Shown: one piece after another, positions 34,544 to 36,798 of the stretch
How the letters are laid out: every line of letters begins with the position of its first letter
How positions within the stretch are numbered: position 1 is the stretch's first letter
DNA from: Candidatus Aminicenantes bacterium
GTDB lineage: Bacteria > Acidobacteriota > Aminicenantia > UBA2199
Reading direction: 5' to 3'
Assembly: GCA_026393795.1 (NCBI GenBank)
Contig: JAPKZL010000229.1
Location: 1 to 47,579 of the forward strand
Length of the DNA stretch: 47,579 nt
Translations under genes and position numbers: made by a program
The notes under the pieces: generated by a model
Told to the model about the DNA's origin: nothing
The model's database searches: none
The model's input: only the letters and a program-made list of their open reading frames with translations

Positions 34544-34716
34544 CGGTATACGGTATACGGCTGACGGCGTAAGGGAAGAAAAGAAATCCCTGAAATTGTA
34601 ACTACAAGAGAACTCGGTGTAAGTTAAAAGGTTTACGATTTACGTTAAATGCATTTTGCCGAAATATTTCGGGAAAATGCTGTTACCGTACACCGTCAAC
34701 CGTGTACCGTAAACCG
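34544..34716. repeat. 173-bp inverted-repeat element with 31-bp imperfect ends
   Basis: The left arm 34544-34574 (built on CGGTATACGGTATACGG) and right arm 34686-34716 (reverse complement built on CGGTTTACGGTACACGG) agree at 26 of 31 positions. Between them lies a second hairpin at 34651-34680 (GCATTTTGCCGAAAT pairing with ATTTCGGGAAAATGC, one mismatch). A T-run at 34720-34726 follows the right arm, so the element may also end pyr transcripts. It fills the gap between pyrC and the convergent FmdB-type gene. Confidence 0.75.
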
Positions 34717-34731
34717 AATACTTTTTTTAGG

Positions 34732-34965
34732 TTAATGGCAGGTGCTGCAGGAGTGGCTCGAACAGCTGCCGCAGGAATGGGACGATTTAGAAGAGCCGGC
34801 GCGCTCTGCCTTGCCCCCGGATGATATGGCGCAGCAGGAGACCAGTTTCTTCACTCGGGCGCTGCCGCATTTTTCGCATTTGACCGCAGCGGCGGCCGAG
34901 AGCGAGCGCAGGAATTTTTCGAAAACCCGGCCGCACTTCTGGCATTTATAGTCATAGATAGGCAT
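34732..34965 (-). CDS. FmdB-family putative regulatory zinc ribbon
   Basis: A 77-residue protein beginning MPIYDYKCQKCG. Cys8/Cys11 and Cys30/Cys33 form the FmdB zinc ribbon. The C-terminus is Cys/His/Ser-rich (SSHSCGSCSSHSCSTCH), possibly a second metal site, as in many FmdB proteins. ATG 34965 follows GAGGTG; a GTG three codons upstream is less likely given the strongly conserved family start. The function of the family is uncertain; a regulatory role is assigned by name only. Confidence 0.85.
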   Translation of the reverse strand: MPIYDYKCQKCGRVFEKFLRSLSAAAAVKCEKCGSARVKKLVSCCAISSGGKAERAGSSKSSHSCGSCSSHSCSTCH

Positions 34966-35036
34966 TTCTTTCACCTCGAGACATTATTTTAACGCAAATT
35001 TGGCTATCGTTCAACAGGGAATGGGATCAGAATCAA

Positions 35037-35201
35037 ATGTAGGGGTTCAATATAGTCACAATATGGTTTCAGCAAGCTTAGTAATCTGCTGAAACCATAT
35101 AGTGTGACTATACTAACACTAGATGTTTTTGGCGACTTTCTGAATGGCCAAAAACATAGTGTTAGTACGAGATCAATTGAGATCATATTGAACCCCTACA
35201 T
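35037..35201. repeat. 165-bp cloverleaf-like element: perfect 17-bp terminal repeats enclosing two related hairpins
   Basis: Ends 35037-35053 and 35185-35201 are perfect 17-base inverted repeats (ATGTAGGGGTTCAATAT). Inside, hairpin 1 pairs 35052-35074 with 35087-35111 (23 against 25 bases, a two-base bulge). Hairpin 2 pairs 35112-35133 with 35147-35166 (again a two-base bulge). The hairpins look like diverged copies: CACTATATGGTTTCAGC against CACTAGATGTTTTTGGC, 13 of 17 identical. TCAAATG occurs just outside both ends (35033-35039 and 35213-35219), possibly a target duplication. It has no coding capacity. It looks like a non-autonomous mobile element or a structured RNA, between the FmdB-type gene and the lipoprotein gene. 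Confidence 0.85.
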
Positions 35202-35221
35202 CCTGATTGAATTCAAATGAT

Positions 35222-35722
35222 CTACTGTTTTACCGCGCCATCAAGCAATTTGACGATCTTGCTGGAGAGCATGTCGACCACGGCCGGTTCGCCCTTCTCG
35301 AGATTGTAGTAGATGTAGGCCGAACTCAGGACGGTGTCCTTGTTGAAGACATGTTTGGGGCGATTGTCGCTCAGGTAACCGTTGGCCTGGCGGAAAATGA
35401 AGATATCCTGGTCCCTGAGGGCCAGAAATCTCGCGTTCAGGGCGGCCATTTTCACTCCGTAATCGGCATAGAGCTTTTCCAGTTGCGACATCAGCACAGC
35501 GGCCTCCGGCTTGTCCTTGGCCAGCGCGGCGGCTTCGGCGGCACATTGGTCGAACGCGGCCAAGATCTCGTCCACGATCACCTTTCCGGCATCGGCCGGG
35601 ACTGCGGCCTTCTTCTCGGCCGAGGCCACCGGCGCCTGGGGCGTTTCCGATTTTTTACCGCAGGCTATGACCAAAGCCAAGACGACGCACAAAAGAACCA
35701 GCCGCAACATTTTTTTATTCAT
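35222..35722 (-). CDS. Predicted lipoprotein of unknown function
   Basis: A 166-residue protein with a type II signal: a hydrophobic core then LVIAC, lipidated Cys21, followed by a Lys/Ser/Pro/Ala linker (22-45). The mature domain (46-166) is mostly helical and charged (VIVDEILAAFDQCAAEAAALAKDKPEA), with no family recognised. ATG 35722 overlaps the mnmA stop (ATGA), with the AGGAGG inside mnmA, so it is translationally coupled to mnmA. Serine and glycine follow the lipidated cysteine region only loosely, so its final membrane is uncertain. Confidence 0.75.
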   Translation of the reverse strand: MNKKMLRLVLLCVVLALVIACGKKSETPQAPVASAEKKAAVPADAGKVIVDEILAAFDQCAAEAAALAKDKPEAAVLMSQLEKLYADYGVKMAALNARFLALRDQDIFIFRQANGYLSDNRPKHVFNKDTVLSSAYIYYNLEKGEPAVVDMLSSKIVKLLDGAVKQ

Positions 35723-36798
35723 CGGCATCCTCCTTGATGATCACTGGTTGGGTCGGGACTGATCTCGCCGGCACCGACGATGACGTCGTTGTCGTAGAAC
35801 ACGGCGAACTGGCCCGGGGTCACCGCCCTGACCGGTTCCTTGAAAACGGCGCGGATGAGCGCCGGCGACACTTCACTTATCTCCGCCTCATGGCCGTGAA
35901 GCTGGTAGCGGACCTTCACCGACAATTTTTCGCCAACAATGAGCGGCCGCCAGAAGACCGGCTTGGCCGCGGTCACGGATCCAGAAAGCAAATCTCTTTC
36001 GTCCCCAAGGATGACGGTTTTAGCGGCTATGTCGCGGCCGACCACATACAGCCTGCGGTCCGAAGCATGGCCGGTGCCGCGGCGCTGGCCGACAGTGAAA
36101 TGGATGGCTCCCTTATGGTGGCCAATCGTGTTTCCTTGCGTGTCCAAAATATCGCCGTCTATGAAATTCCCCGGGAGATGGCGGGAGAGATAGGCGCTTA
36201 AGGTTTCCCCCTGCAGAAAGCAAACATCCTGGCTTTCCTCGGGATTGGCCAGCGGCAGCCCGGCCACTTTCGCCCTCACCTGCTGGATGGTCAAGGAAGC
36301 GATGGGAAAAAGGACTCTGTACAGTATGGCCGGCTCTATCATGGCCAGGAAATAGATCTGCGACTTGCAGCGGTCGATGGGTTCTTTCAGAAACCATTGT
36401 TTTTTAAGGAAAACCTTGTCGGCGTAATGGCCGCTGGCAAAAAGGCTGCCGCGGGAATTTTTTTCCGCCTCGGCCAGCAGCAAACCGAACTTGACCTGAC
36501 GGTTGCAGACCACGCACGGGTTCGGGGTCTGGCCGCTCCGGTAGGACTCTAAAAAATACGTTAAAACCTTTTCCCGGAAGGCGTGGCGCAGATCGCTCAC
36601 ATGCCAGGGGACGGCTACAGCCCGGGCCAGGTTCTCAATTTTGGCCAGTTTTTCATCCTCGTTGGCCAATCCGAGGCGCATGGTCAGGGCCCGAACTTCA
36701 TAGCCCTGCTCCCTGAGCAGGAGCACGGCGGCGGTGGAGTCCTTGCCGCCGCTGAAAGCGACGGTCACGGCCCCAAGGTTGCCGCTCCCTACCGGCAC
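35719..36798 (-). CDS. mnmA: tRNA-specific 2-thiouridylase
   Basis: A 359-residue ATP pyrophosphatase that puts sulfur on U34 of tRNA-Lys, -Glu and -Gln. The PP-loop SGGKDS is at 16-21, the first catalytic Cys95 in NPCVVCNRQVKFG, and the second Cys193 in EESQDVCF. HYA, VGQRRG and the C-terminal barrel are typical. GTG 36798 is the start: GAGGAG lies eight bases upstream, inside the dus gene. The PP-loop has Lys where most MnmA proteins have Val (SGGVDS), as seen in other thiolases. It overlaps dus upstream and the lipoprotein gene downstream. Confidence 0.92.
   Translation of the reverse strand: MPVGSGNLGAVTVAFSGGKDSTAAVLLLREQGYEVRALTMRLGLANEDEKLAKIENLARAVAVPWHVSDLRHAFREKVLTYFLESYRSGQTPNPCVVCNRQVKFGLLLAEAEKNSRGSLFASGHYADKVFLKKQWFLKEPIDRCKSQIYFLAMIEPAILYRVLFPIASLTIQQVRAKVAGLPLANPEESQDVCFLQGETLSAYLSRHLPGNFIDGDILDTQGNTIGHHKGAIHFTVGQRRGTGHASDRRLYVVGRDIAAKTVILGDERDLLSGSVTAAKPVFWRPLIVGEKLSVKVRYQLHGHEAEISEVSPALIRAVFKEPVRAVTPGQFAVFYDNDVIVGAGEISPDPTSDHQGGCR

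Follow-up and report, generated by a model that had tools for sequence, protein, structure and literature searches.

The element at 35039-35199 of the window (the whole 47,579-nt stretch analysed, from an uncultured Aminicenantes bacterium) is a composite of two nested repeat families, a 46-bp palindrome (R46) that carries an inverted pair of bulged hairpins (HP) inside it. It is most likely non-autonomous mobile DNA, in which an R46 palindrome mobilised by a RAYT (REP-associated tyrosine transposase) carries a separate HP element of the single-stranded DNA type. R46 is found around and inside a RAYT gene of the same genome, the HP family is more numerous and is found as pairs and singles, and most empty sites of HP are best matched without any target duplication.

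Structure and copies of the composite element

The element is placed between two minus-strand genes, and its parts in window coordinates are as follows.

34732-34974, minus strand: neighbouring gene for an FmdB-like zinc-ribbon protein, 80 aa (from the ORF list, named by reading only)
35033-35039, plus strand: left TCAAATG, overlapping the first base of the element; GATCAAATGTAGGGG is present also inside R46 half-unit arrays
35039-35199, no strand assigned: composite element, R46 palindrome with the HP pair inside, 161 bp from GTAG to CTAC; six further copies (five in its own genome, one in G010) with unrelated flanks
35039-35052, plus strand: R46 left arm, GTAGGGGTTCAATA, matching exactly how uninterrupted R46 palindromes start
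35053-35110, plus strand: HP1, 11+10 bp stem, bulge TA at 35098-35099, 14-nt loop; covariance model R1, E = 7.6e-18
35111-35167, minus strand: HP2, inverted relative to HP1, 13-nt loop; covariance model R1, E = 4.1e-19
35168-35199, plus strand: remainder of R46, CGAGATCAATTGAGATCATATTGAACCCCTAC; joined to 35039-35052 it gives the uninterrupted 46-bp R46
35213-35219, plus strand: right TCAAATG, 13 nt outside the element end, with unrelated sequence in other copies
35222-35728, minus strand: neighbouring gene for a putative lipoprotein, 168 aa (from the ORF list, named by reading only)

The preliminary description of this region had noted perfect 17-bp outer arms and two inner bulged hairpins that are diverged copies of one another, and both features were confirmed. 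The arms at 35037-35053 and 35185-35201 are exact reverse complements of 17 nt each, and each hairpin stem comprises 11+10 bp and a 2-nt bulge; when reversed, hairpin 2 (35111-35167) can be aligned to hairpin 1 (35053-35110). The HP2 bulge is TC on the minus strand and appears as GA at 35122-35123. The outermost AT/AT pairs belong to the local flank since other copies diverge at these pairs, and the true ends of the repeat are GTAG (35039) and CTAC (35199). A 201-nt stretch containing the element folds at -56.8 kcal/mol compared with -16.1 ± 3.2 kcal/mol in dinucleotide shuffles (z = -12.7), and 0 of 200 shuffles folded as low. Excision of 35053-35167 (115 bp) leaves a 46-mer of the form seen in uninterrupted R46, with the best junction match at zero target duplication. 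The two TCAAATG heptamers, proposed earlier as a flanking duplication, were rejected as a target duplication, as the right-hand one lies outside the element and is missing at other copies. Elsewhere in the window, an imperfect inverted repeat of ~120 bp (34606-34725), upstream of the FmdB-like gene, contains CCGTGTACCGTAAACCG and has partial matches dispersed across the genus.

The existence of further copies had been set beforehand as a test. The genome that contains the window (G000, 323 contigs) holds five further near-complete composites with 91-94% identity, along with dozens of partial matches, and a seventh copy (92%) is present in G010, a related species of the same genus. In alignments that include the flanks, the similarity among copies spans GTAG to CTAC and the sequence beyond is unrelated; nothing is shared by the long flanks. 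Lipoprotein orthologues in G011, G014, and G001 adjoin the same neighbour with no element between them. Among the four relatives in which the orthologous intergenic region was read, that of G011 is short and lacks the element, those of G014 and G001 contain other sequence, and that of G012 contains a single HP-like hairpin at a different position. The composite thus has the general properties of a mobile element, namely several copies that share their ends but lie at unrelated places, together with absence at orthologous sites. Searches of viral contigs returned 0 matches, and the plasmids searched gave no match.

These results agree with the earlier suggestion of a non-autonomous transposon, given the further copies, the compensatory changes described below, and the presence or absence of the element among species. 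The accompanying idea that it grew by hairpin duplication does not hold; the hairpins were not duplicated in situ, as HP is an independent and more numerous family that came to lie inside R46, after which the two were multiplied together.

R46 is the cognate repeat of a RAYT

R46 is a 46-bp palindrome, GTAGGGGTTCAATA...TATTGAACCCCTAC, the halves of which form the outer arms of the composite, and follows the pattern GTAGGGGTTCAATA(yGAnnTCnnnnnGAnnTCr)TATTGAACCCCTAC. At least 18 uninterrupted copies were found among the loci examined, most of them from this genome. Exact matches to GTAGGGGTTCAAT number 49 in G000 compared with 0 for the reversed control, and occur mostly in uninterrupted 46-bp palindromes with some in half-unit arrays. 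Outside G000, R46 is rare in the family. The locus L168/L191 consists of an R46 palindrome alone and was matched via R46-encoded residues.

On contig C280, R46 is present upstream of, downstream of, and in frame inside an ORF encoding a 190-aa RAYT (G000:C280:4719-5288). This protein matches NCBIfam NF047646 REP_Tyr_transpos at 2e-16, falling short of the curated cut-off, and Pfam Y1_Tnp at 4e-5, where it just passes the cut-off. A degraded relative (C149:12036-12398) adjoins a composite copy. Of all RAYT loci fetched across 16 genomes, only those at C280 and C149 have R46 beside the gene. Because it surrounds and lies within the C280 gene, is dispersed, and accompanies only the C280 and C149 RAYTs, R46 is the cognate repeat of the C280 RAYT; as in other RAYT-associated repeats, it both flanks the gene and is dispersed. 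It departs from the textbook GTAG REP, in which GTAG is unpaired, as the GTAG of R46 is paired with CTAC in nearly every uninterrupted copy and the half unit has no evident stem-loop of its own.

Several related arrangements were observed. At L028 (G000:C37:9833-9982), tandem 26-bp R46 half units (GTAGGGGTTCAATAyGATATCAGGGT) are repeated five times and end in one full palindrome. Two other RAYT genes, 76% identical to each other (L045 and L046, on G000 contigs C206 and C255), each lie between inverted repeats GGGACGGACTATGAAAAAGTGAA, with GGGACGGACTATG... inverted on both sides; since the similarity stops at the flanking repeats, RAYTs of this type seem to move as one whole. Small RAYT genes at L097 (G007:C23), L087 (G013:C109), and L088 (G011:C102) are flanked by other palindromes of the GTAG...CTAC type, for example GTAGTGACAGGTCGCGACCTGTCACTAC. 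At L076:1-2643 (G007:C46) and L077:1-2379 (G012:C306), a Y1_Tnp (RAYT-like) domain is in frame within a restriction-modification-like ORF of ~930-1000 aa and is bounded by in-frame palindromes, AACAAGGGG(C/T)TTAA(G/A)CCCCTTGTT, that encode NKGLKPLV.

HP is a separate and more numerous hairpin family

HP units are bulged hairpins of 57-60 bp with TA ends and the form TA-nnnn-CACTA-TGnTTTnnnC-loop(13-15)-GnnnAAAnCA-TC-TAGTG-nnnn-TA, the 2-nt bulge being TC in 81 of 111 parsed units. They occur as singles or as inverted (+ -) pairs. A covariance search of the element's own genome identified at least 93 distinct units on 42 contigs, with 27 scored as adjacent pairs; the number is a lower bound because 150 of 1500 candidates were scored. 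HP is present in 9 of the 16 genomes of the genus and in 0 of 126 other genomes of the class, and those of its carriers that are named MAGs belong to Candidatus Aminicenantes / Acidobacteria. In loci L114:1577-1776, L073:1243-1300, and L119:1331-1388, HP is nested in HP, so that a single, longer hairpin carries two bulges (TACCAACACTAGATG-TTTTTGCACTATGG...).

HP carries no GTAG or CGTC end tag; its TA...TA ends are paired and the flanking bases vary by site. No HP flanks a RAYT gene as its own repeat among the RAYT loci fetched from the 16 genomes, the sole RAYT containing HP being a gene that is interrupted by it. None of the fetched Y1_Tnp loci of the genus has the HP-like ends expected of an autonomous TnpA-coding element, and no recurrent mobile-element family was seen among the 25 commonest of 101 families in 106 ORFs neighbouring HP. 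Thus, neither the fetched RAYT and Y1_Tnp loci nor the ORFs near HP provided an enzyme linked to HP.

Insertion junctions and target sites

We joined the flanks across each HP element and matched them to all sequence examined, allowing extra or missing bases. Among the 21 HP elements with an empty-site match, which represent fewer than 21 independent insertion events because several matches are R46 copies inside other composites, 17 fitted best at exactly zero duplication (a call that is ambiguous by 1 nt where an A precedes or a T follows the junction in the target) and approximately four fitted best at one nucleotide. The one-nucleotide junctions are GGAATTT-repeat sites and L030:1131. No junction fitted best at two or four nucleotides. 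A TA or TATA target duplication, which we first favoured from the interrupted RAYT site, was rejected on the basis of this systematic scan. HP lacks the fixed-length target-site duplication of a DDE-type MITE. Insertion without target duplication is a property of IS200/IS605-type elements, and HP shares it with non-autonomous elements of this type.

Junctions were resolved in R46 (CAATA^CGAG), in a gacaaac...gtttgtc palindrome (GGGGACA^GACAAAC), and in copies of tRNA-Ser (GAGTGG^TCGATT, GGCGG^TCTTG, and GATTCGAA^CCCACGG) with intact tRNA-Ser alongside. In G010 (L082), an HP pair splits a RAYT gene and strict TA...TA excision restores the conserved frame FQGRY|KAI (FQGRYKA), which adds one more empty site without target duplication. 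HP units also directly follow tRNA-Ser and tRNA-Leu genes (L032, L067, L070, and L054). Overall, HP is positioned at apices or feet of other palindromes, in copies of tRNA-Ser genes, and directly 3' of tRNA genes, with many junctions at the apex of another palindrome. When all HP sites were evaluated for a helix-internal location, the mean was 0.32 at junctions compared with 0.41 in controls; as this average shift is modest, the preference for apices and loops, although plain on inspection of many sites, is a tendency and not a strict rule.

Partial tRNA-Ser copies have HP in the D-loop, anticodon stem, or T-loop (L025:993-1232, L067:3151-3549, L051:1615-1730, and L106:217-275); those in L025 and L067 lie beside intact tRNA-Ser genes, and the D-loop site is identical in G006 and G012. 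A third palindrome family, CAGCACAAACTATCCGCC...GGCGGATAGTTTGTCTGTCC, is host to many HP inserts in G000 and G012 (L017, L030, L033, L037, L039, L044, L068, and others).

Stem covariation and alternative explanations

Compensatory changes in the stems, looked for since the preliminary description, were found in abundance. In 69 HP units picked by conserved letters only, 711 of 759 freely varying stem cells (94%) are Watson-Crick with hardly any G-U, far above shuffles, with the qualification that the units are mutually related and the cells are not independent events. In alignment A1, 13 of 21 pairs changed on both sides and 168 cells were doubly changed compared with 53 ± 7 when shuffled, while 12 were singly changed, and the signal is lost when the register is shifted. 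A1 was selected partly by pairing, so the unbiased claim of covariation rests on the 69-unit set. The four variable outer stem pairs contain no G-U intermediates. The near-absence of such intermediates points to a constraint on the DNA, or to templated correction, rather than to selection on RNA.

This pattern bears directly on the proposal, raised in the preliminary description, of a structured RNA whose hairpins act in transcripts through attenuation, processing, or stabilisation of mRNA or tRNA 3' ends, with compensatory changes preserving the fold. We consider it quite improbable. The very stable fold, the strong covariation, the several units that immediately follow tRNA-Ser and tRNA-Leu genes, and the location between co-directional genes in the window would suit an RNA, but stems that change almost only as whole Watson-Crick pairs (12 singly against 168 doubly changed cells) would not. 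Moreover, no Rfam family matched near any gathering score, with only weak, chance-like microRNA scores returned, and HP units occur in either orientation, within one another, and within copies of protein and tRNA genes, and related species lack them in the orthologous intergenic regions. The covariation could instead be mutational and not selected, if template switching at hairpins repairs imperfect palindromes such that both arms change together and the units spread by other means. The replacement of whole Watson-Crick pairs with hardly any intermediates is consistent with this idea, as are nested and apex insertions, which fit copying errors at hairpins. Arm-to-arm correction should, however, remove the conserved TC bulge that most parsed units have kept, and exact TA...TA insertion at unrelated sites would need a dedicated step, making this explanation unlikely.

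Two further explanations concern the mobility of HP. Correia and RUP elements are IS630-type MITEs with TA targets, and HP resembles a classical MITE of a DDE transposase in being short, palindromic, and dispersed, with TA at both ends and inverted pairs. This origin is disfavoured and highly improbable, as a TA or TATA duplication is never the best empty site and most junctions are at zero, the stem interiors covary, which a DDE MITE does not require of its terminal repeats, and no such transposase was seen near HP among the 25 commonest ORF families. HP might alternatively be the REP of a RAYT that does not use a GTAG tag, the RAYT being now lost or missed in incomplete genomes. Bulged hairpins in inverted pairs do resemble REP dimers, REP dimers inside other palindromes have been reported (PMC3733652), and so have untagged TnpA_REP classes (PMC6006769). 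Against this, HP lies beside none of the RAYT genes fetched from 16 genomes, and the HP-rich G012 has few RAYT genes; we regard this assignment as doubtful.

Proposed mechanism and comparison with known systems

For the composite as RAYT-mobilised R46 carrying a separate HP pair, we propose a single-stranded route. The C280-type RAYT, a TnpA_REP-type HUH transposase, would by analogy with its enzyme class nick and rejoin folded single-stranded R46, and its action would spread anything located between both arms. TnpA_REP enzymes act on single-stranded REPs in vitro (PMC8266576). HP is a separate element that inserts exactly, without target-site duplication, and mostly at the loop or foot of DNA hairpins such as palindromes and tRNA genes. 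A single HP pair probably entered a single R46 copy, with the 161-bp composite then copied to at least six places in this genome; the six copies would share identical nesting because the HP pair spread as cargo of R46. The bulged hairpin, the lack of target duplication, and the hairpin targets suggest that HP itself behaves like a single-strand element, and a similar HUH-type enzyme may move it.

GTAG REPs, BIMEs, and REPINs with their RAYT (PMC3733652, PMC3116915, PMC8266576) resemble R46 in the GTAG start, the clustering at one RAYT gene, the dispersal, and the RAYT specificity, and resemble HP in the mid-stem 2-nt bulge and the inverted-pair arrangement of REP dimers. The bulge of HP recalls the REP bulge that E. 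coli TnpA_REP needs (PMC8266576). Unlike these repeats, R46 has GTAG paired with CTAC and a half unit without a stem-loop, while HP exceeds the 20-40 bp stated for REPs and has neither an unpaired tag nor a linked RAYT. In TIR-type RAYT elements (TIRYT/TIRtrons), for which Acidobacteria are among the described hosts (PMC3733652), inverted or self-complementary repeats similarly flank the RAYT gene, as at the C206 and C255 RAYTs here, and are also dispersed; R46 starts with GTAG and not with the GGGGWSAS motif, and has a second family inside it. REP dimers within palindromes have been reported for Anabaena variabilis GTAG-15, Halothiobacillus CGTC-1, and also Thermomicrobium (PMC3733652). These place a hairpin dimer in the middle of a palindrome, as HP is placed in R46 and in the gacaaac...gtttgtc palindrome, but the host palindromes described here also exist uninterrupted in many copies, a RAYT belongs to one of these hosts, and HP enters tRNA genes and a protein gene as well. 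CGTC REPs, like HP, have no linked transposase.

Non-autonomous elements derived from IS200/IS605 share with HP the bulged hairpin ends and act on folded single strands, as proposed for HP (PMC8266576, PMC6006769). They differ in that no such TnpA is linked to HP, HP pairs are inverted and are not end hairpins of the same strand, and no fixed target tetranucleotide was found for HP. Mitochondrial double-hairpin elements are another comparison, Allomyces being one carrier. These double-hairpin or repetitive hairpin elements of fungi and sponges (PMC2800124) are also short, variable hairpin pairs, tandem or nested, that occupy intergenic regions and some genes and are present or absent at the species level. 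HP differs in that it occupies a bacterial chromosome and has long stems, a conserved bulge, an insertion junction that could be resolved, and a host palindrome with a linked transposase. Our literature search on nested covarying bacterial hairpins and on Aminicenantes repeats, which most subscription papers fell outside, returned nothing specific. Relative to these systems, what sets the present case apart is the presence of uninterrupted host palindromes with their own RAYT, the duplication-free junctions, the tRNA targets, and the near-perfect Watson-Crick covariation.

We tentatively entertain the broader reading that HP, unlike REPs, forms a class of its own, a non-autonomous hairpin element that acts on single strands, targets folded hairpins, inserts exactly from TA to TA in palindromes and tRNA genes, at the loop or the foot and without duplication, and evolves by replacement of whole Watson-Crick pairs. 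If so, palindromes would grow by nesting in Russian-doll fashion, and other transposases would carry the composite. How short bacterial palindromes such as REPs, BIMEs, and CGTC repeats spread is still an open question. In this genus, R46 comes together with its RAYT. HP is more abundant, falls into many subfamilies, and shows resolved empty sites and strong covariation at the DNA level, but has no visible enzyme; the composite joins both families in one element. R46 and HP provide directly testable RAYT substrates and tractable mobile hairpins that land in other hairpins and in tRNA genes.
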